In this document: positions 6,986 to 32,316 of the stretch, piece by piece
Position numbering within the stretch: position 1 is the first letter of the stretch
Layout: each line of letters opens with the position of its first letter
Source of the DNA: a virus
DNA length: 64,000 bases
Reading direction: 5' to 3' (one strand)
IMG/VR virus record: IMGVR_UViG_3300029922_000038
Coordinates: 1 to 64,000 of that record
The notes under the pieces: generated by a model
What the model saw: only the letters and a program-made list of their open reading frames with translations
The model's database searches: none
What the model was told of the DNA's origin: nothing
Program-made: the position numbers and the translations under genes

Positions 6986-7337
6986 GGGGATGATATTGGA
7001 TTTGACAGTATTCAAAGGATAAATTTTGATATGCGTAGTTTAATAAATACTACTAAAACAGTATTAAAAGTCTTAATTGACAAATCATTAGTAAGTAAAT
7101 TAGCTGCTGAAGCAGTTGCTAATTGCAATTCAGATTCCAGAATCTATAAAACTGGCACTGTTGTAGAAACAGAAGCTTTTGAATTAGTAGCTTAAACTAA
7201 TTTAATCCTCTACTATACAGAGTAAGGTATAGATAGGTTTTGTAAATTTCTTAGCTTAAAAATTTATAAGAAGCATATTAATCCAAAATTAAAGTATGTT
7301 TATCTGGACCTGGGGTCGCAGCCCAGCATCTCCACTA
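6986..7337 (+). ncRNA. ssrA: Transfer-messenger RNA (tmRNA)
   Basis: tmRNA frees stalled ribosomes by adding a degradation tag. The 5' end GGGGATGATATTGGATTTGA is the classical tmRNA start. The 3' end has GGAC, a 5-bp T-stem (CTGGG/CCCAG) and CATCTCC, which pairs with GGGGATG, then A and CTA instead of CCA. The T-loop is GTCGCAG rather than TTCRANY. A reading frame ends with VVETEAFELVA and a TAA that lies in the loop of AATTAGT/ACTAATT, as tag stops do in helix H5. That frame is open back to an ATG at 7031, so the resume codon cannot be fixed by eye. A pk1-like fold (GTAGT/ACTAC, AATACT/AGTATT) lies near 7036-7066. Confidence 0.9.
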
Positions 7338-7371
7338 CAATTTATTGATAATTAATATATTATCAATAAAC

Positions 7372-7443
7372 AGTCTATTAGTTTAATGGTTAGAATAGGG
7401 GATTGTCTATCCCTTGATGAGAGTTCGATTCTCTCATAGACTG
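7372..7443 (+). tRNA. tRNA-Asp (anticodon GTC)
   Basis: The acceptor stem AGTCTAT/ATAGACT is perfect. The D-arm is GTTT...GAAT, the anticodon stem GGGGA/TCCCT has loop TTGTCTA (anticodon GTC at 7405-7407), the variable region is four bases, and the T-arm GAGAG/CTCTC has loop TTCGATT. The discriminator is G, and CCA is not encoded. It lies 35 bases after the tmRNA and is probably co-transcribed with it. Confidence 0.92.
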
Positions 7444-7480
7444 CAAAATTAGTCATTTGCGTAAGAATAAATAACTAAAC

Positions 7481-13858: not shown

Positions 13859-14641
13859 ATGGAATACAAAGATTTAGATAAAAGTGGAGTTTATACAATT
13901 ACAAATATTGTGAATGATAAAAAATATGTAGGTAGTACAATAATGAGTTTTCAGAAAAGGTTTGCTCATCATTTATCTATGTTAAGAAATAATAATCATA
14001 AAAATAGATATTTACAAAATTCTTGGAATAAGTATGGAGAACAAAATTTTAAATTTGAAATTTTAGATATTTGTGAAAAAGAATTTTGTTTATCTACAGA
14101 ACAATATTGGCTAAATATATTAAACTCTACAAATAAGTCTATAGGATTTAATATAAATCCATTAGCAACTGGGCCAGATAAAAGTCCAGAAACTATTGAA
14201 AAAAGAAGACAATCTATATTAGAAAATTATAGAACTGGTAAAATGGTTTCTTTTTTTAAAAAAGGTTTTACTCCCTGGAATAAAGGACAAAAAATGTCAC
14301 AGGAACATTGTGACAAATTAAAATCCTCCGCAAAAGGAAGAACTATGTCAATAGAAGCTAAAGAGAATTTAATAAAAAATTATAGAAAAGATATGAATCA
14401 CATTCTTGTATATGCTCAAAATAATGAGATTATAGGAGAATGGAATAATATTTATGAGCTTAGTGAATATTCAGTTAATAATAATATATTAACTGAATTT
14501 ACTGGAAGATTTAAAAATGGAAGAAAAGGGAAGCCTATTCATTATTTAAGTGCATTTCATATACATAGAGCAGCTATAGGAAAAATTGATTCTTACAAAG
14601 GTCTTATTTTTAAATATAAAACAAGCCCCCTAATAGAGTAA
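13859..14641 (+). CDS. GIY-YIG homing endonuclease (intron-encoded)
   Basis: This 260-residue enzyme makes the break that spreads the intron. GVYTI (GIY) and KYVGS (YIG) lie at about residues 11-27, then the conserved Arg in FQKRF, and a catalytic Glu probably in LSTEQYWLNIL. Downstream are NUMOD3-like DNA-binding segments (GPDKSPETIEKRRQSI and PWNKGQKMSQEHCDKLKSS) and a NUMOD1-like segment (ILVYAQNNEIIGEWNNIYEL). All expected parts are present, so it is probably active. It lies wholly inside the group I intron. Confidence 0.92.
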   Translation: MEYKDLDKSGVYTITNIVNDKKYVGSTIMSFQKRFAHHLSMLRNNNHKNRYLQNSWNKYGEQNFKFEILDICEKEFCLSTEQYWLNILNSTNKSIGFNINPLATGPDKSPETIEKRRQSILENYRTGKMVSFFKKGFTPWNKGQKMSQEHCDKLKSSAKGRTMSIEAKENLIKNYRKDMNHILVYAQNNEIIGEWNNIYELSEYSVNNNILTEFTGRFKNGRKGKPIHYLSAFHIHRAAIGKIDSYKGLIFKYKTSPLIE

Positions 14642-14877
14642 TCTATTAAGGGAATTGGGTGAATTGCTGGAAAGCTAAGTAGAAATATAAGCTAATCAGC
14701 AGCCAAGCTAAATTTAAGTTAAAAGAATTTAGAAGGTTCAGAGACTACAGGGGTGAGCTTAACAATAATCTCCTGCACGAGTGCCCAACATCCTAAATTT
14801 AGGATGATGATATAGTCCGAGCTATATAGAAATATATAGAATATAGAGATAAAGAACTCTATAGATAACAAATACTG

Positions 14878-15660
14878 AAACTGGGGTTCGCACATTTTTG
14901 GCTATATGATCTTAATGCTCTTTATAAAATAACTATTAATGGACAATTGTTTCTATTAATGTTAATAGAACAATTAGAAGAAAATGGATTTGAGATAATA
15001 GGAACAAATACAGATGGACTGGAAGTAATAGTACCAAATAATAAAAGAGGATTATATGATTTTATTTGTAATCTATGGGAACATGATACTGGATTTGTAT
15101 TAGAATATGATATATATAGCAAAATAGTTATCAAAGATTGTAATAATTATATATCTATAACTGAAGAAGGTAAAATAAAAGAGAAAGGTAGTTTTCTCAC
15201 TAATAGGAGTAAAATATCACTTGTAGATGAACTAAAGAGAGCCTTTGATATGCCTATAATAGCAGAAGCATTATTTTTATATTTTATAGAACAAATACCT
15301 ATTTCAGAAACTATTAAAAATAATAAAGATATATATAACTTTTGTACTTCTCAAAAAGCAGGTAGTGAATTTGAAATAGAATACCATTATATAAAAAATG
15401 ATGATAATAATATTCCTACTAAGTTTATAGAGAAGATGCAAAAAACAAATAGATATTATATATCTACTAAAGGAGGGGCACTACTAAAAAAAAAGAATAA
15501 TAAATATACTTCAATGGCAGCAGGACTTACAATAGAGATATTTAATAACTATATAGAAAAAGATATGAAAGATTATAATATAGATTATAATTATTATATA
15601 TCTGAATGTAATAAAGTAATAAATGTAATAATGAATAATTTTCAACAAAGTTTATTTTAA
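14878..15660 (+). CDS. polB: DNA polymerase family B, exon 2
   Basis: Exon 2 opens AAA CTG GGG (K-L-G), completing motif B, and runs 260 residues to the TAA. Motif C is TNTDGLEV, with D423 as the catalytic aspartate where DTDS is usual. KFIEKMQKTNRYYISTKGG and the following lysines fit the thumb. An ATG at 14947 could make only a fragment lacking motif B and is not a likely start. Confidence 0.88.
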   Translation, partial: KLGFAHFWLYDLNALYKITINGQLFLLMLIEQLEENGFEIIGTNTDGLEVIVPNNKRGLYDFICNLWEHDTGFVLEYDIYSKIVIKDCNNYISITEEGKIKEKGSFLTNRSKISLVDELKRAFDMPIIAEALFLYFIEQIPISETIKNNKDIYNFCTSQKAGSEFEIEYHYIKNDDNNIPTKFIEKMQKTNRYYISTKGGALLKKKNNKYTSMAAGLTIEIFNNYIEKDMKDYNIDYNYYISECNKVINVIMNNFQQSLF

Positions 15661-24651: not shown

Positions 24652-25311
24652 ATGTTTCAAGTAAATAAAGATACTGCTGGTGCAACTGGCGGAAATTTTC
24701 TACACGGTGGTATTAATGATAATATTGAATTTATTGGCTTTAGTAGGGCTAATACAAAAGAGGATGGTAGTGGAGTAGAATATACTGGTCTTACATTTAA
24801 TAATGGGGATCAAACTTATACTGCAAAATTATGGGATATTGATGAAGATAAAGTAAAAGCTAATCTTGTTAATTATCCAAGGGTTCATACAAGAGAAATT
24901 AAAAATCCTGATGGTACAGTTAAGTATGCTAAAGGAATAGATGTAACCCCTGATGCAGCAGTTGACCTTGCCAATAGGGAATATTCTTCTACTTTAGTAG
25001 CTATTCTTGATAAATTTATGCCAGCAGAGGATATAATTATTAATCCTACAAGCTATGAAGATCTTGTAAATCAAGCTAATACCCTTCTTGGTAAGAAAGC
25101 AATAGGGGTTAAACTTAGATTGAAGCTTGTATATAAGAATAATTACTTAACTTTGCCAAGGTTTGGATTTATAGAACTTATGAGTGTTAATCCACCTAAA
25201 GTAGTAGTAAATCCTCAATATGATGTAATTACTAAAAGTGTAGCAGAACCTACTACTGGTCATCCAGCAGATGCTGTCCCAGTTGCTCAAAATTCAGATC
25301 TTCCTTTTTAA
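24652..25311 (+). CDS. ssb: Single-stranded DNA-binding protein
   Basis: This 219-residue protein has a beta-rich body (FIGFSRANTKEDGSGVEYTG, TYTAKLWDID) and a flexible tail ending SDLPF, which matches the conserved SSB tip (D-x-I/L-P-F) that recruits repair and replication partners. It coats single strands at the fork. It is flanked by the annealing ATPase and primase genes. The body is divergent, so the call rests on the tail and context. Confidence 0.75.
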   Translation: MFQVNKDTAGATGGNFLHGGINDNIEFIGFSRANTKEDGSGVEYTGLTFNNGDQTYTAKLWDIDEDKVKANLVNYPRVHTREIKNPDGTVKYAKGIDVTPDAAVDLANREYSSTLVAILDKFMPAEDIIINPTSYEDLVNQANTLLGKKAIGVKLRLKLVYKNNYLTLPRFGFIELMSVNPPKVVVNPQYDVITKSVAEPTTGHPADAVPVAQNSDLPF

Positions 25312-25321
25312 ATAATAAACC

Positions 25322-26317
25322 ATGATAAATGTCTTTCCTAAGATAACAAAGTCTTTTATTCTTAATAGAATTACAGAAATAGAAATAATGGAGAGATATT
25401 TAGGTTTAAAAGTAGATACTAATAAACTATATAAATCTCCACTTAGAGTTGATAAACACCCCACATGTAAATATACATATTGGAATGGTAGACTTTATTT
25501 TAAAGATTTTAATGGTAGTTTTAATGGTGATTGTTTTAATGTTGTACAAAAAATACATAGTACTAATTTCTTAGATTCTTTATATATTATAGCAAACGAC
25601 TTTAATATATTAAAGAAACCTAAGAAAGAATTAGTAGAATATATATTTGATAAACCACCTGTTCAGGAAAAACTATCAATAGGTATTAAATCACAACCAT
25701 TTACAGATATAGATAAACAATACTGGGATTCTTATTTTATATCAGAACAATCATTAGAGAAATATTTTGTATATAGTTGTAAACAAGTATTCATTGGAGA
25801 GAATATTATTTATAATTATAGCAAGAAAGACCCAGCTTATGCTTATTACTTTGGTAATGGCAACTATAAAATTTATTTTCCATTTAGAAAGAAAGAAGAA
25901 AAAAGATTTATTAATAACTGTAATAATACTATTATTCAAGGGTATTGGCAATTGCCAAAGGAGAATAACTTATTAATTATTACTAAGTCTTATAAAGATG
26001 TTATATGTTTAAGTGAATTTAATATTCATTCAATTGCTCCTCAAAGTGAAACATGTGGGCTAACACATGGATTAATACGAGAGTTATCTCAAAGATTTAA
26101 AACTATTATAAGTTTATATGACTTTGATTTAACAGGAATAAGAGGGGCAAATAAATTATATAAAGAAGAAAATATAAAACCTATCTTTTTTACCAATGGG
26201 AGATTTAATTCTATAGATTATCAGGCAAAAGACTTTTCAGATTATTTGCATGATAATGGATTTTTAAAAACAAAAGAGTTAGTAGATGGTCTACTAACAC
26301 AAAAACTAATTAATTAA
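25322..26317 (+). CDS. DnaG-like primase
   Basis: The N-terminus (YKSPLRVDKHPTCKYTYWNG...FKDFNGSFNGDCFNVVQ) has the layout of the DnaG zinc-binding domain (SPFRxEKTPSF...DF...GDxFxxV) but lacks the four zinc ligands. Toprim-like motifs follow: LLIITKSYKDVICLSEF and SLYDFDLTGIRGANKL (D-x-D). At 331 residues it lacks a helicase-binding domain. It makes primers for the polymerase and belongs with the DnaB-like helicase at 21937. Confidence 0.8.
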   Translation: MINVFPKITKSFILNRITEIEIMERYLGLKVDTNKLYKSPLRVDKHPTCKYTYWNGRLYFKDFNGSFNGDCFNVVQKIHSTNFLDSLYIIANDFNILKKPKKELVEYIFDKPPVQEKLSIGIKSQPFTDIDKQYWDSYFISEQSLEKYFVYSCKQVFIGENIIYNYSKKDPAYAYYFGNGNYKIYFPFRKKEEKRFINNCNNTIIQGYWQLPKENNLLIITKSYKDVICLSEFNIHSIAPQSETCGLTHGLIRELSQRFKTIISLYDFDLTGIRGANKLYKEENIKPIFFTNGRFNSIDYQAKDFSDYLHDNGFLKTKELVDGLLTQKLIN

Positions 26318-26323
26318 TTTTTT

Positions 26324-26884
26324 ATGAGTTCTCGTAAAATTACTGTGTACTCTACACAGACTAATAAAAAGAGTGAAGTAAATACAGATGTAGCAACATG
26401 GGCAGAACTGCAAGCAGTAATGACAGATGCTGGTATTACCCATGAAGGTCTAACTGCAACAGAAAACAGGACAAAAACTAATTTGTCTTTAGGAGCAGCA
26501 GTTCTGCCAGAAGGAGAATTTGTTCTATTTCTTTCGCCAAGTACTAAAATTAAGAGTGGTACTTCTTGGAGAGATATGTCTTATAATGACATCAGGAAAC
26601 ACGCTACTTCAATTGGTGTATCTGGTTTAGGTACAACCGCAGAAATTGGTCAAAGGATTGAAAACTGGGAGAAAACTAACAAGAATACATCATCTTCAAA
26701 TGATATTCTTAATACTAAATTTCCTACAGTAGCTGCTAAACTTGATGCTTTTATTAAGCATACAGATAAACAATTTGCAGAAGTATCAGAAGCTGTTAAT
26801 AATAGTGATTATTTTGATAATACTCCTTTTGGAGAAGATGACAATTCTAATCTTGCAAATGAAGCTGCAAGTCTTGGATTGTAA
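26324..26884 (+). CDS. Ubiquitin-like protein fused to a SAP-like domain
   Basis: This 186-residue protein has residues 4-80 with the shape of prokaryotic ubiquitin-like proteins of the PRTRC-C type: KITVYS start, a TWAELQAVMTDAGI helix, LGAAVLPEGEFVLFLSPSTKIKSG end (G79). MSYNDIRKHATSIGVSGLGT...EIGQRIENWE (86-116) resembles a SAP/HeH DNA-binding helix pair. The tail is acidic and ends AASLGL with no diglycine. Downstream E2-like, JAB and E1-like genes support a conjugation role. The assignment is by eye from motif spacing and context. Confidence 0.62.
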   Translation: MSSRKITVYSTQTNKKSEVNTDVATWAELQAVMTDAGITHEGLTATENRTKTNLSLGAAVLPEGEFVLFLSPSTKIKSGTSWRDMSYNDIRKHATSIGVSGLGTTAEIGQRIENWEKTNKNTSSSNDILNTKFPTVAAKLDAFIKHTDKQFAEVSEAVNNSDYFDNTPFGEDDNSNLANEAASLGL

Positions 26885-26906
26885 TAAGTTTCATATTTTT
26901 AATAGT

Positions 26907-26938
26907 AAAATAGGGGTAGAAATGCCCCTATTTTATTT
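26907..26938 (+). terminator. Intrinsic terminator
   Basis: AAAATAGGGG (26907-26916) and CCCCTATTTT (26925-26934) enclose TAGAAATG, followed by ATTTTA. It would make the ubiquitin-like transcript more abundant than the genes behind it. Confidence 0.8.
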
Positions 26939-26951
26939 TAATATTTAATAT

Positions 26952-28496
26952 ATGTATGAATATAAAGCAGGAGATATAGTAAAAATAATAAATGGGAAAG
27001 GAAGTGATTTAGGTAGTATGCTAAATGGTAAAGAGGTTATATTAGATACTCAACCAGATGATGGCTATAGATTAGGTACAGATAGTAAATATAATCAAAA
27101 ATTAGTATTTTCTTATTTTGATAGGGATGGAGATTTAGTAGATTCATTATATTTTAGAGATGAAGATATAGAACTTGTAGGTTGGACATATATACCAGAT
27201 TATGAATTAATAAAAGATAAAAGGTTTAAATTAATAGAAACTGATTTAAATGAACAATTTGTTAATCCTAATTATATAAATAGTGAAGAAGTTTATAAGC
27301 ATGGACTTATAGAGTTAGATTCAAGAGGATATTTTTGTAGTTTTGGAGGATCTATGATTGATTTACAAATTAGAGTATCTTCAAATTCAGATAGCCCGAA
27401 TTATAATATTTTTAATGAACTTCAATATAAAGTAGAAATAAGATTAGATAATACTATTAAGATATTTTATAAAGAGCCTCAAGTAATATTTGATATTTCT
27501 ATTATAGAAGAATATAAAACTATATTTAATGATTATTTTAAAGAAGATTGTGAAATTAGAAAAATAAATAATATAGAATATGAATTTGTAATTCATTTTC
27601 CTGATATAATTATAAAAAATGAGTTAGATAAAACTCATCCAATTAAAGACTTATATGTATTTTTTAATCTTAAGGTATTACAAAATAATAGATTTGTCTT
27701 TATGAGAGAAAATCAATCAGATTATTATTTAAGTGGTTGTAGAGGAACAGTAACAGATAGAGAATATGCTGTAAAATATCAACATTCTCATTTATCTTCT
27801 GGTTATCATAATTCTAAATTTTGTTTAGGGACTGGCCCCATTTTAACTAATATTGCTGCATTTAATATGCGGAATGATAGTTTATTATTTGAAAAAATAA
27901 TGTTGGATATTATAGATTATATAAGTGTTGAAAGTATAGAAGGTACTCCATATATTGAATTTAAATGTGTTTATACCCCAAGAAATCAACAAAGAATTAA
28001 TATAAGTGATTTACAATTACGACAAGAATATCTAAATTTCTTATCTTATTATGATAATTTACCTGTATCTATTAGTAATTTAGAAATAAAAGTAGATGAA
28101 AATAATCCTGAATTTATTAAACAGGTATCTGCTATTACTAATTTTATAAATGGTCAGGAATCAGAAATACAAATTAGTAATAGCGATAAGAATAAATTAA
28201 TGTTAATATTTAAAAATGAAGAAGTTAGACTTAAAATTATTAAAGAAGAAAAAACAGATGAGCAAAATAAAGAGCAGCTACAAAGAGTTGCAAATACAAG
28301 AGTCCTCCAATATATCGCAAAAAAACTTAGTGAAGACTTATCAGACAAAGCCATTAGTGGAATTACCAGGAAGAGCGAAGCTGGTTATTTCACAGGAACT
28401 TTGGTTGAAGATACATCAACTTCACTTGAATGTAGGGAAAATAGAGTGGTCAGGAGTATTGTTTCTAAAAGTGGAAGGAAACTTACTAAATTATAA
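26952..28496 (+). CDS. Candidate E2-like protein, 514 aa
   Basis: An SH3/KOW-like start (YKAGDIVKIINGKGSDLGSM) precedes several hundred beta-rich residues. Around residues 277-295 lies YQHSHLSS...SKFCLGTGP. A His-x-His pair (H278, H280) close before a Cys-Leu-Gly (C291) is the arrangement seen in prokaryotic E2-like proteins. C291 is the candidate thioester cysteine. It lies between the ubiquitin-like and JAB genes, where an E2 is expected. The last ~240 bases overlap the JAB start in another frame, so its real C-terminus is doubtful. The E2 call is inference. Confidence 0.5.
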   Translation: MYEYKAGDIVKIINGKGSDLGSMLNGKEVILDTQPDDGYRLGTDSKYNQKLVFSYFDRDGDLVDSLYFRDEDIELVGWTYIPDYELIKDKRFKLIETDLNEQFVNPNYINSEEVYKHGLIELDSRGYFCSFGGSMIDLQIRVSSNSDSPNYNIFNELQYKVEIRLDNTIKIFYKEPQVIFDISIIEEYKTIFNDYFKEDCEIRKINNIEYEFVIHFPDIIIKNELDKTHPIKDLYVFFNLKVLQNNRFVFMRENQSDYYLSGCRGTVTDREYAVKYQHSHLSSGYHNSKFCLGTGPILTNIAAFNMRNDSLLFEKIMLDIIDYISVESIEGTPYIEFKCVYTPRNQQRINISDLQLRQEYLNFLSYYDNLPVSISNLEIKVDENNPEFIKQVSAITNFINGQESEIQISNSDKNKLMLIFKNEEVRLKIIKEEKTDEQNKEQLQRVANTRVLQYIAKKLSEDLSDKAISGITRKSEAGYFTGTLVEDTSTSLECRENRVVRSIVSKSGRKLTKL

Positions 28497-28659
28497 AGAT
28501 ATGGAGTTTACTGCTGTAGATATGTATCTTATGGATATAGGAGATGCGACAAGTACAGAGTTTGATTTCCAAGATACAGCTTGGCTAAATGCTTTTGATG
28601 AAAACCCAGATTTAATGGGATTAAAAATGGGATTATGTCACAGTCATCATTCAATGGCT
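28258..28659 (+). CDS. JAB/JAMM metallopeptidase, exon 1
   Basis: Exon 1 codes 134 residues and contains the metal-site Glu in KIEWSGVLF (E63) and the first half of the zinc motif CHSHHSMA (H128, H130). It stops at a group I intron after T28659. Read through, the frame would end two codons later. An in-frame ATG at 28216 is possible, but 28258 (MSKIKSSYKELQ) has the better context. JAB enzymes cleave ubiquitin-like tails from targets or process the precursor. Confidence 0.78.
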
Positions 28660-28688
28660 AAATATTAGTTATTTCAATAAATATTGTT

Positions 28689-28696
28689 TATATTTG
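28689..28696 (+). promoter_or_regulatory. TAnnTTTG box before the endonuclease
   Basis: TATATTTG then T lies 21 bases before the endonuclease ATG, matching the Bacteroidetes -7 element. The position is parallel to that of the box in the other intron. No clear -33 element is seen. Confidence 0.4.
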
Positions 28697-28717
28697 TACA
28701 TAATAAAATGTATAAAT

Positions 28718-29545
28718 ATGAAATTACTTTCAAAACAAGAAAAAGAAAAAATTGCAGAATTATATGATTCTGGATTAAATGCAGTAGAGATTAAAAGAGA
28801 GATGGGTTTAAAAAATCATCAACAAGTATATAATGTATTAAAATATTTACCTCAATATCAAGCATATAAATATGGTAGAGGGGATAATAGAAAATATACA
28901 CTAAATGAAGATTATTTTAAAATTATTAATTCAGAAGAAAAAGCATATATATTTGGTTTTATATGTGCAGATGGACATGTAGCTTTTAATAGACTAAGAA
29001 TATTAGTAGCAACAAAAGATAAAGATATACTTGAAAAAATTAGAGTATGTTTAGAGTCTTCTGATGAAGTAGAAGATGTAATTAGAGAATCCAGATTTTC
29101 TTATGGAAAAAGATTATTCTATCATTCGCAAATAGCATTTAATTCAATTAAACTTGCAAAAGATTTGTTAAATTTAGGATTAGATAGTAGAAAAACTTAT
29201 TCTTTATCATCAAAAATATTAGAAAATATTCCTCTTAATTATATGAAGGATTTTTTAAGAGGATATTTTGATGGAGATGGGAATGTTATGTATGGGAATA
29301 AATATAGTTCTGGTAAGAAATATCTTATTCAGATAGCTGGGAATAAAGAGTTTTTAGAAAATTCTTTTGGAAAATATTTTCCAACAACTAATAAGTATTA
29401 TTTTTTCCCTAAATCTATACAAACTTGGTGTTATAAACTATCATCTAAAGAAAATGTGAATAAATTTTTAGAATATATTTACAAAGATTCTACAATTTTT
29501 CTTAATAGAAAGTATAATATTTATAAAAATAATGTGGCCATTTAA
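28718..29545 (+). CDS. LAGLIDADG homing endonuclease (intron-encoded)
   Basis: This 275-residue protein has an N-terminal helix-turn-helix (KEKIAELYDSGLNAVEIKREMGLKNHQQV) and two LAGLIDADG-type motifs, FGFICADGHV and LRGYFDGDGNV, about 100 residues apart, each with its acidic catalytic residue. It is a complete monomeric enzyme of the LAGLIDADG_3/intein-like type. ATG 28718 is preferred to the upstream TTG at 28694. It sits inside the JAB intron. Confidence 0.9.
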   Translation: MKLLSKQEKEKIAELYDSGLNAVEIKREMGLKNHQQVYNVLKYLPQYQAYKYGRGDNRKYTLNEDYFKIINSEEKAYIFGFICADGHVAFNRLRILVATKDKDILEKIRVCLESSDEVEDVIRESRFSYGKRLFYHSQIAFNSIKLAKDLLNLGLDSRKTYSLSSKILENIPLNYMKDFLRGYFDGDGNVMYGNKYSSGKKYLIQIAGNKEFLENSFGKYFPTTNKYYFFPKSIQTWCYKLSSKENVNKFLEYIYKDSTIFLNRKYNIYKNNVAI

Positions 29546-29805
29546 AACACATTGAATTGCTGGAAACCTAAGTCTATTTATAGATATGGCAATCAGCAGC
29601 TAAGATTAATCTTATGATTAATAAAGTTCAGAGACTATCGAAAACACAGTTTAAAAACTGGAAGTTAGTAGAGTACATCCAAGTGGATGGAAGCGGTGTG
29701 ACTTTACACTTAGTAAAGTATGATATAGTCCGATACCACGTAACTACTGAAGTTACTATACCGAAAGGGTGGAAGTTGTCTAACGAACAACAGGTAAATT
29801 TATTG

Positions 29806-30603
29806 ACATTTTTTTCAGGTACAGATATAGGGCATTTACATTCTCAATCTCCAGATCATAATTACTTTCTATCTTTAATTGTTAATTTTGCGTGTGAACC
29901 AATTGCTAAAGTAGCTTTTGCTTCTACGCGAAAATTAGCTTCATCATCTTCTTTTAGTTTTAGAGATGATGAAGGGAATATACAATTTCAAGAAGATAAT
30001 AGTAATAAAGAAGAAGATATTACAGTAGTATTTAATTGTGATGTATTTGTAGAAATAGAACCTAAACTTCTTGATAGAATAGATGAATTAAAAGAAGCTA
30101 AGAAAAATAGGTATAAACAATTTACAAATAATTGGAATACTAAAAAACAAAATTATATTCATACTGATTTTGATTGGGAAAAATGGAAAGCTGAACAAAA
30201 TGGAGAAGGAATAGCTACTGTTTGGGATACTGAAGGTAAGAGATTAAATGCTACTGATATTCAAACGGAGTTTGATTTTAGTAATCATGAAAAACTTATT
30301 GCAGATTCACAAATAGAATATTTTACTAAATGTTTACTTGCTGATACTTATAATGATTATGAGAAAACAGTAGAATTATTAGTAGAAGATAGAAATGCTT
30401 GTGTAGATACAAATGCTGAAGCAAGACAATGTTGTATGGCCATGCACATGATGTATGATTCTGTTTTTCATGATGATACTTATTTTACTGAAGTCATGAC
30501 TAAAGTTATAGCTCTATTAGGTAAATATAAAAGTGATTTTACAACAAAGATGATTTCTATCATTAAACAAGAATTAAAAGAATATGTCAGCACAGAATTA
30601 TGA
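29806..30603 (+). CDS. JAB/JAMM metallopeptidase, exon 2
   Basis: Exon 2 opens TFFSGTDIGHLHSQSPDHNYFLSLIVN. Joined to exon 1 it gives H128-S-H130-x7-S138-x2-D141, a complete JAMM motif. The remaining ~235 residues include an acidic linker and a helical C-terminal region (CLLADTYNDYEKTVELLVEDRNACVDTNAEARQCCMAMHMM). The spliced protein is about 399 residues. Its end overlaps the E1-like gene by 20 bases, so the two are co-translated. The in-frame ATG at 29614 is inside the intron and not a real start. Confidence 0.8.
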   Translation, partial: TFFSGTDIGHLHSQSPDHNYFLSLIVNFACEPIAKVAFASTRKLASSSSFSFRDDEGNIQFQEDNSNKEEDITVVFNCDVFVEIEPKLLDRIDELKEAKKNRYKQFTNNWNTKKQNYIHTDFDWEKWKAEQNGEGIATVWDTEGKRLNATDIQTEFDFSNHEKLIADSQIEYFTKCLLADTYNDYEKTVELLVEDRNACVDTNAEARQCCMAMHMMYDSVFHDDTYFTEVMTKVIALLGKYKSDFTTKMISIIKQELKEYVSTEL

Positions 30604-31291
30604 TAGATTTAAAGATGCTCCTTGGTTCAAACCCCTTAAAGTAATTGTAGGGGGTGCTGGAGGTATAGGTTCCAATCTTATTTATCTCTTAGCTAAAATG
30701 CCATATCGAATTTATATATATGATTTTGATGTAGTAGAAGCACATAATAGTTGTCAAATGCTTGGAGGTTTTACTAATATAGGTAAGTTAAAAACAAGAG
30801 CAGTAAGAGAACTTGCACAAAAATTATCAGATAATTATGGTATTAGAGAGTTTGGAGAATATACTTCAGAAGGAATGGTAGACGATATTATGTTTGCTGG
30901 ATTTGATAATATGAAAGCAAGGAAGTTAATGTATGATAACTGGAAACAATATCAATTAACTAAAGTAGAAGAACCTGCTATAGAAGAACCTAAGAAAGAG
31001 GTTAATTTATTTGTAGATATGAGATTAGCAGCAGAAACAGGTATTATATATTTTATAGACTCTAAAGAAAGAATGGAAAGATATGAAGCTGAATTATTTG
31101 ATGATTCAGAAGTTCCAGATGAACCATGTACTTTTAGAGCTACTGCTCATGCTTCTATGTTAATAGCTTCTTATGCTGTTGCAGGGTTAGTTAATAAGGT
31201 AACTAATGTTGAATGGGGAATAGAGGCAAGAGAAGTACCATTTAAACTTAATTTTGAATTACCATTATTTAATATGAAAACAATTGTATGA
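30584..31291 (+). CDS. ThiF/E1-like adenylating enzyme
   Basis: This 235-residue protein has the nucleotide loop IVGGAGGIGSNL (G23-G29), the acidic YDFDVVEAHN (D47, D49, N55), GKLKTRAV (K70) and a candidate active Cys in EPCTFRATAHAS (C182). This matches E1/ThiF proteins that activate ubiquitin-like proteins with ATP. It lacks a separate Ub-fold domain, as in small prokaryotic E1s. It overlaps the JAB gene by 20 bases and the next gene by ATGA. Confidence 0.82.
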   Translation: MSAQNYDRFKDAPWFKPLKVIVGGAGGIGSNLIYLLAKMPYRIYIYDFDVVEAHNSCQMLGGFTNIGKLKTRAVRELAQKLSDNYGIREFGEYTSEGMVDDIMFAGFDNMKARKLMYDNWKQYQLTKVEEPAIEEPKKEVNLFVDMRLAAETGIIYFIDSKERMERYEAELFDDSEVPDEPCTFRATAHASMLIASYAVAGLVNKVTNVEWGIEAREVPFKLNFELPLFNMKTIV

Positions 31292-32316
31292 TAGAGCAAT
31301 TACATATAGAAAATAATTTTGGATTTATATTACAAAATCATGGCATTAAAGAAAGTAATTCTTATTGTGAATATGTTCCTTTTTATATATTAAAGCAGAA
31401 TACAGATTCTTTAATAAAATTAGAACAAGAGAATAGGCAAGGTATAGAAGAAATATATAATAATTTATATCATGAGTTTCAATTATGTCAAGATCAAACT
31501 TTTTCTCAATATTATACTATTGCTGAATTACCTGCTTTATTTCAAGAAAATGATATTATTAGTCATAGATTTAGATTAAGAAATTATGAAGAAGGAATAT
31601 ATTCTCCTTTTAATTTAGAAATAGAAGAAAATATAATTAGGCAATATGAAGATACTAAAAAATTTATATCTTTATTTTCATTAGTAATTCCTATTAAATA
31701 TGTACCTTATGTACAAATATGTTTAATGTTAGAAGAACCTATTGATTTAAGAGTATATGAATTTTGGATTAAAGAAGATTTTGATATTAAAGATTCTATT
31801 TATACTAATTATAGAAAACTATATAGAAAGTATTTATTACCTGATTTAAAAGAGAATAATGTTCCTATTGTAGTTAAAAAAGATATAGATAAAGAACTTT
31901 ATTTCTTTCCTGAAATGCCTAAATTTAAAAGAACTTCTGATTATGATAAATATGTAGAAGAACTTGTTAAAGATAGTATTATTAAATTAAGGATAGATAA
32001 TGGTATACAAGGTATTAATAATGATTTTCGTGTAACTTTTGAAAGTAATGATTATATATTAGAAGAAGGTACATTAAATGTTAATGGTACTACTTGGAGA
32101 ACTTTTAATAATTCTGGAGATAATTTAGTATCACAAATAATGAGTACTGATACTTATCAACCGTTAACTGCTGCAAGATTAGATTCATTTATATCAAATT
32201 TAACTTTTAATTCAAATAGTTCATTAGGTAGTAATATGCCCCCTGAAGAAAATCTAAATCATATTAATAATGAATTATATCAAGAAGCATTAAGGAGTAT
32301 GGAAACTTCTGAATAA
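31288..32316 (+). CDS. Hypothetical protein, 342 aa, possible readthrough
   Basis: This protein is not recognised. It is beta- and helix-rich and acidic, with no zinc or nucleotide motif seen. It is coupled to the E1-like gene by ATGA, so it may belong to the same system. After the TAA at 32314-32316 the frame stays open for 25 more codons of similar composition (EEQEIENGALEEEWYGIGFE) to 32394. Either the stop is a recent mutation or readthrough occurs. Confidence 0.78.
   Translation: MIEQLHIENNFGFILQNHGIKESNSYCEYVPFYILKQNTDSLIKLEQENRQGIEEIYNNLYHEFQLCQDQTFSQYYTIAELPALFQENDIISHRFRLRNYEEGIYSPFNLEIEENIIRQYEDTKKFISLFSLVIPIKYVPYVQICLMLEEPIDLRVYEFWIKEDFDIKDSIYTNYRKLYRKYLLPDLKENNVPIVVKKDIDKELYFFPEMPKFKRTSDYDKYVEELVKDSIIKLRIDNGIQGINNDFRVTFESNDYILEEGTLNVNGTTWRTFNNSGDNLVSQIMSTDTYQPLTAARLDSFISNLTFNSNSSLGSNMPPEENLNHINNELYQEALRSMETSE

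Follow-up and report, generated by a model that had tools for sequence, protein, structure and literature searches.

In the papers we found, bacterial ubiquitin-like conjugation belongs either to host defence (CBASS and Bil) or to operons, on plasmids and elsewhere, whose role is unknown, and the ubiquitin-like genes of phages belong to tail assembly. The plasmid PRTRC system comprises a ThiF protein (TIGR03736), a JAB peptidase (protein A), an E2 of the Prok-E2_D type (protein B) and a ubiquitin-like protein (protein C), encoded in a cluster. Here we analyze a 64,000-nucleotide stretch (the window; positions 1 to 64,000 of the 89,352-bp virus record IMGVR_UViG_3300029922_000038) in which a ubiquitin-like protein (Ub), an E2-like protein, a JAMM/JAB peptidase and a ThiF-type E1 are encoded by four plus-strand genes. 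Here the whole chemistry forms a conserved unit of a human gut phage family. We interpret it as a self-contained phage system for ubiquitin-like conjugation and deconjugation with a PRTRC-like layout, whose most likely targets are replication or repair proteins, and we assign this interpretation a probability of about 0.68.

The four-gene cassette, originally predicted from the letters of the DNA alone, is real. Its open reading frames (ORFs) lie on one strand as described, including the overlap between the JAB and E1 genes; four are listed in the Table, and two more (28216-28668 and 29614-30603) contain the parts of the JAB gene. A scan of viral contigs with a single E1 sequence found nothing, while an alignment query succeeded. 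E1 relatives occur in crAss001 and other Steigviridae (Crassvirales), in Flavobacterium Fpv phages and at 73 IMG/VR loci. When these 73 loci were scanned with profiles of the four proteins, all four genes were found in 66, and the remaining 7 have the E1 near the contig start. A scan seeded with the JAB, whose loci share many contigs with the E1-seeded set, recovered the order Ub-E2-JAB-E1 in 69 of 78 loci, the remaining 9 being cut by contig ends. Because this order recurs in every locus that is not cut by a contig end (66/66 E1 loci and 69/69 JAB loci), chance is excluded as its source. The cassette is fixed in the Steigviridae, the Flavobacterium Fpv phages and many environmental viruses.

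Identity to the window sequence is only roughly 20-30% for the E2-like and Ub proteins. That the predicted catalytic residues are invariant at such low overall identity speaks for the proteins being active members of a single pathway. In crAss001 the cassette corresponds to gp79-gp76, with Ub and E2 annotated as 'hypothetical protein' and the other two partially named, which makes the pathway easy to miss. Megablast of the cassette region against phages gave no match, and our literature search found no full ubiquitin-like cassette in crAss-like phages, although its coverage was partial and absence is not implied. We rejected a host-encoded origin, as this E1 appears on only 3 short contigs of a bacterial and archaeal genome collection, probably phage contigs within metagenome-assembled genomes. 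ThiF matches in jumbo Xanthomonas and Moraxella phages were also discarded, with no cassette annotated beside those genes.

The ubiquitin fold proposed for the 26324 protein is confirmed by its predicted structure. AlphaFold2 models residues 1-70 with pLDDT values of 95-98 and the beta-grasp element order E-E-H-E-E, and the top Foldseek matches are mostly ubiquitin, ISG15, NEDD8 and SUMO, at a probability of 1.00. Profile searches of Pfam and the PDB with this protein returned nothing useful. The beta-grasp domain ends in a glycine, Gly79, that is present in 67/67 homologs and preceded by Ser78 in 64 of them. This glycine is not the C-terminus in most members, which continue for another 53-217 residues. 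Two near-identical short proteins (L011 and L012) stop one residue past the equivalent position (...MAAGY/H), and at locus L057 the frame stops two residues past the glycine and resumes further on; a separate insertion may have split the gene there. As a separate observation, the Ub tails at L006:5332-6255 and L033:4322-5257 (loci assigned by eye) apparently contain a segment resembling the ribosomal L7/L12 C-terminal domain, and one member of the Ub alignment matched that Pfam family (3.1e-10).

The 30584 protein is a ThiF/E1 enzyme, as predicted. In addition to its Pfam match (Table), its profile matches MccB, UBA5 and Cap2 in the PDB, with MccB the best by score. The Rossmann motif and the cysteine are both conserved: GxGGI, DxD, Lys70, Arg113 and Cys182 are kept in 72/72 E1s, and all 10 PRTRC ThiF proteins compared have their conserved cysteine at the position of Cys182.

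The 26952 protein is likely an E2, judging from its motif and predicted model. Classical E2s contain the motif HPN...CL, which is resembled here by HSH-x10-CLG, a cysteine with histidines upstream. Ser279, His280, Cys291, Gly293, Glu327, Ser328 and Gly331 are found in 66/66 homologs, and His278 in 64 of the 66. In the model, which is weak outside a core of about residues 200-340, the strands, HxH, cysteine and two helices follow the element order of the UBC fold. Thus, the motif on which the original prediction of an E2 was based is present and conserved, but fold searching, which recognized the Ub, did not recognize an E2. Foldseek with the E2-like model found no E2 in the PDB, and its BFVD matches were only crAss-like homologs. 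Against PRTRC protein B the cysteines align, but with a nonsignificant probability of 0.5% that we do not use as proof, and no Prok-E2_B references turned up when the genomes of one phylum were searched for them. At L155:4947-7056 we also observed two tandem E2-like ORFs, possibly a duplication of the gene.

The missing fold and profile matches would be explained if Ub, JAB and E1 worked without a true E2. The E1 would then activate the Ub-like protein for direct transfer or for sulfur transfer, and the 26952 protein would be a partner with another fold, such as a substrate, a scaffold or a different cysteine enzyme. ThiF-family enzymes also perform sulfur transfer, and MccB as the closest PDB relative of the E1 points the same way. 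We nevertheless consider this alternative unlikely: HxH-x10-C-L-G is invariant, the strands and helices are ordered as in UBC folds, the gene occupies the E2 slot of PRTRC and a pure sulfur-carrier operon would not be expected to hold an E2-like gene at all.

The JAMM peptidase is present, although not as the single ORF originally proposed, in which an intron had been missed. ORF 28216-28668 runs through the JAMM glutamate (EWSG) and H-S-H before it ends, and S-x2-D is found in ORF 29614-30603, the first 64 codons of which are intron. The intron therefore interrupts the JAMM motif between H-x-H and S-x2-D. Joining 28659 to 29806 produces HSHHSMATFFSGTD, with exact H-x-H-x7-S-x2-D spacing, in a 399-residue protein, and the full E...H-x-H-x7-S-x2-D pattern is found both in this protein and in every intact homolog. 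Prok-JAB matches the joined sequence weakly (E=0.022, below the curated cut-off), with an alignment that spans the junction, whereas the separate pieces do not match. Rfam identifies a group I intron core (RF00028) at 29490-29750 with 54.5 bits and E=1e-12. The internal guide sequence (IGS) forms 12 of 12 pairs with the two exon ends; 9 of 2000 shuffled junctions do equally well. A U.G pair, which this guide would form, is usual at the 5' splice site of group I introns. The JAB gene thus consists of two exons around a group I intron. We infer that the intron splices itself out, so that expression of an active deconjugase in this phage should depend on splicing.

Other cassettes carry insertions at similar places. 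The JAB of phage Fpv1 has an insertion of approximately 1 kb (L002:7052-8108) that the near-identical Fpv3 (L008) lacks, providing a natural intron-plus/minus pair. Related introns lie exactly between the H and SH codons of the JAB at L059 (5598-6650) and L032 (6157-6452), and between the H and SH codons of the E2 at L068 (4230-5364), with 82-85% identity among the three in matched stretches. The same His-Ser-His codons, in two different genes of the cassette, have thus served as sites for a single mobile intron family. The introns of L059 and L068 contain a LAGLIDADG ORF on the opposite strand. A second JAB site, a few codons further on between MA and TFF, is common to the window and L037 and is occupied by a different intron type. 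As in known phage group I introns with LAGLIDADG ORFs, we see an RF00028 core, a guide that matches the exons and insertion into codons of a conserved motif. Unlike in those introns, there are two JAMM-codon sites and one site in the HSH codons of the E2, and the orientation of the ORF differs between the two intron types. Elsewhere in the window, at 14593-14839, Rfam reports a second and stronger group I intron (121.2 bits) between ORFs 13859-14641 and 14947-15660, with no obvious endonuclease ORF inside its core.

The setting of the cassette bears on its role. We read the genome as crAss-like, in agreement with the original prediction, from its major head protein, terminase and portal families (PHROG matches, whose crAss assignment is our own reading), its giant structural ORFs and a replication block resembling that of Steigviridae. 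The cassette sits within this block, where its neighbours encode primase, helicase, nuclease and resolvase functions; the structural genes occupy the other strand. In annotated Steigviridae relatives a primase likewise adjoins it upstream, and genes for uracil-DNA glycosylase, resolvase, exonuclease and dUTPase come after. The setting is a replication module, the gene order is constant and the variability typical of defence genes is lacking; we therefore favour a core role, most simply reversible tagging that regulates replication or repair proteins.

The same features bear on the earlier suggestion that the cassette counters ubiquitin-like defences of the host (Bil or CBASS). Interference with type II CBASS or Bil could consist, for instance, in charging host conjugates or stripping them off. 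Genes for counter-defence tend to be small, variable and accessory, whereas this set is conserved across many lineages, at every locus examined, and has its place in the replication block. When compared with PADLOC models, only the E1 resembles any, through a generic and weak ThiF similarity to E1-E2 and BilD; no other part of the cassette matches. Host systems with such chemistry do exist (PMC10097602). Counter-defence nevertheless seems to us improbable. Still less credible is processing during virion assembly, on the model of the lambda-type tail proteins TAPI (Ub-like) and TAPK (JAB): the genes keep company with replication functions on the strand opposite to the structural genes, and they include an E1 and an E2-like gene that tail modules lack.

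Several points weigh against reversible tagging of replication or repair proteins. There is no substrate, no E3 and no direct evidence of conjugates, and searches of the PDB, Pfam and profile-profile comparison gave no E2 match for the 26952 protein. The replication target is suggested by gene neighbourhood alone. Additionally, an acidic-hydrophobic motif closes the Ub tail in 36/67 homologs, compared to 1.1 expected, and such conserved features mean that the tail may not be a mere propeptide. The tail of the window protein looks SAP/HeH-like near its start (by eye), and one member has a Pfam SAP match. Given this resemblance and the recurrent C-terminal motif, the tail probably functions in docking or DNA binding, whether the JAB releases it or it is retained.

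Our proposed mechanism for tagging would run as follows. The Ub-like protein would be made as a precursor, which the JAB metalloprotease would cleave after Ser-Gly79 at the end of the beta-grasp domain. The E1 would then adenylate the exposed glycine and hold the Ub-like protein as a thioester on Cys182, from which it would move to Cys291 of the E2-like protein and on to a lysine of the target. Phage replication or repair proteins are the most likely targets because the operon sits in the DNA-replication block, and the JAB could also remove the tag, making the modification reversible. The ubiquitin and SUMO tagging of PCNA offers an analogy. As a tentative generalization, which we rate well below the interpretation for this locus, a lineage of abundant gut and aquatic phages might possess a self-contained pathway that reversibly modifies DNA-replication proteins with a ubiquitin-like tag and is kept as a core function, its catalytic codons repeatedly colonized by self-splicing introns. 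Since the cultured crAss001 carries the cassette, the function of PRTRC-like systems is accessible to experiment in a phage and host grown in the laboratory.

Table. Features of the cassette and its immediate neighbours in the window.
Feature	Position	Strand	Basis and remarks
DNA primase	25322..26317	+	directly upstream of Ub gene; phrog_12622 DNA primase 2.6e-44
Ub-like protein, 186 residues	26324..26884	+	AlphaFold2 and Foldseek; beta-grasp residues 1-79 ending KIKSG, helical tail of ~107 residues
Gly79 codon, proposed cleavage/conjugation point	26558..26560	+	invariant in 67/67 homologs
E2-like protein, 514 residues	26952..28496	+	conserved core ~195-345; H278-S-H280, C291-L-G293
JAB (JAMM) exon 1	28258..28659	+	EWSG glutamate and HSH; alignment to intact homologs; start uncertain, 28216 or 28258
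Group I intron within JAMM motif, 1,146 nt	28660..29805	+	Rfam RF00028; exon joining; IGS pairing
LAGLIDADG homing endonuclease ORF in intron	28694..29545	+	PF14528 3.9e-10; phrog_4645 endonuclease 3.9e-45
Internal guide sequence AATGTGGCCATT	29531..29542	+	pairs with 5' exon AATGGCT (U.G at splice site) and 3' exon ACATT
JAB (JAMM) exon 2	29806..30603	+	S-x2-D and C-terminal region; 20-nt overlap with E1 start (30584-30603)
ThiF-type E1 adenylating enzyme, 235 residues	30584..31291	+	Pfam ThiF 1.1e-10; catalytic Cys182 predicted
Downstream coupled gene, no assigned function	31288..32316	+	positional counterpart in 6 relatives, 12-20% identity

The gene that follows the E1 had been suggested as a target or partner of the system; its positional link holds in relatives, and its conservation is weak (Table). 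Further upstream, the protein encoded at 24652-25311 ends in SDLPF, resembling the acidic tip of single-strand DNA-binding proteins, and the Fpv1 gene downstream of the cassette ends in EDLPF. The window also contains a predicted tmRNA at 6986-7444, unusual in a phage, with a tag ending in ELVA and a tRNA-Asp beside it.

Among known systems, the lambda-type tail proteins share with this locus a phage Ub-like protein with a conserved glycine and a JAB; for TAPI/TAPK, cleavage by the JAB at this glycine has been proposed (PMC1779556). Tail modules differ in having neither E1 nor E2 and in belonging to a different gene module. Type II CBASS (Cap2/Cap3) and Bil apply similar E1, E2 and JAMM chemistry to a Ub-like or target C-terminus; unlike them, the cassette is phage-borne, encodes E1 and E2 separately, includes no CD-NTase or effector and shows similarity, weakly, only in the E1.

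The likeness to plasmid PRTRC is closer. Both systems have the order Ub (C), E2 (B), JAB (A), ThiF, with JAB and ThiF coupled, and both occur in a mobile-element setting, some PRTRC copies lying beside ssb. The PRTRC Ub also has a single glycine near the protein end, followed by a tail in some copies. PRTRC ThiF is the only plasmid match that covers most of the phage E1, and hhalign gives probabilities of 98.3% for E1 against ThiF and 93.3% for JAB against protein A. In contrast, the phage Ub and E2 score below 1% against proteins C and B, and other pairings below 2%. No ParB or E is annotated or matched beside the cassette, no F lies between Ub and E2, and the PRTRC E profile matches none of the four phage proteins. 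The phage JAB differs from protein A by a large extra C-terminal region. An operon in row 6d of Iyer et al. 2006 contains an E2 with no upstream histidine and one downstream instead (PMC1779556). This row is probably PRTRC, judging from its composition and a shared Cupriavidus member; unlike its E2s, the phage E2-like protein has HxH ahead of the cysteine. The original comparison with PRTRC therefore survives in part: ThiF, protein A and gene order match while C, B, ParB and E do not, which by these comparisons makes the phage cassette PRTRC-like, yet places it outside PRTRC proper.

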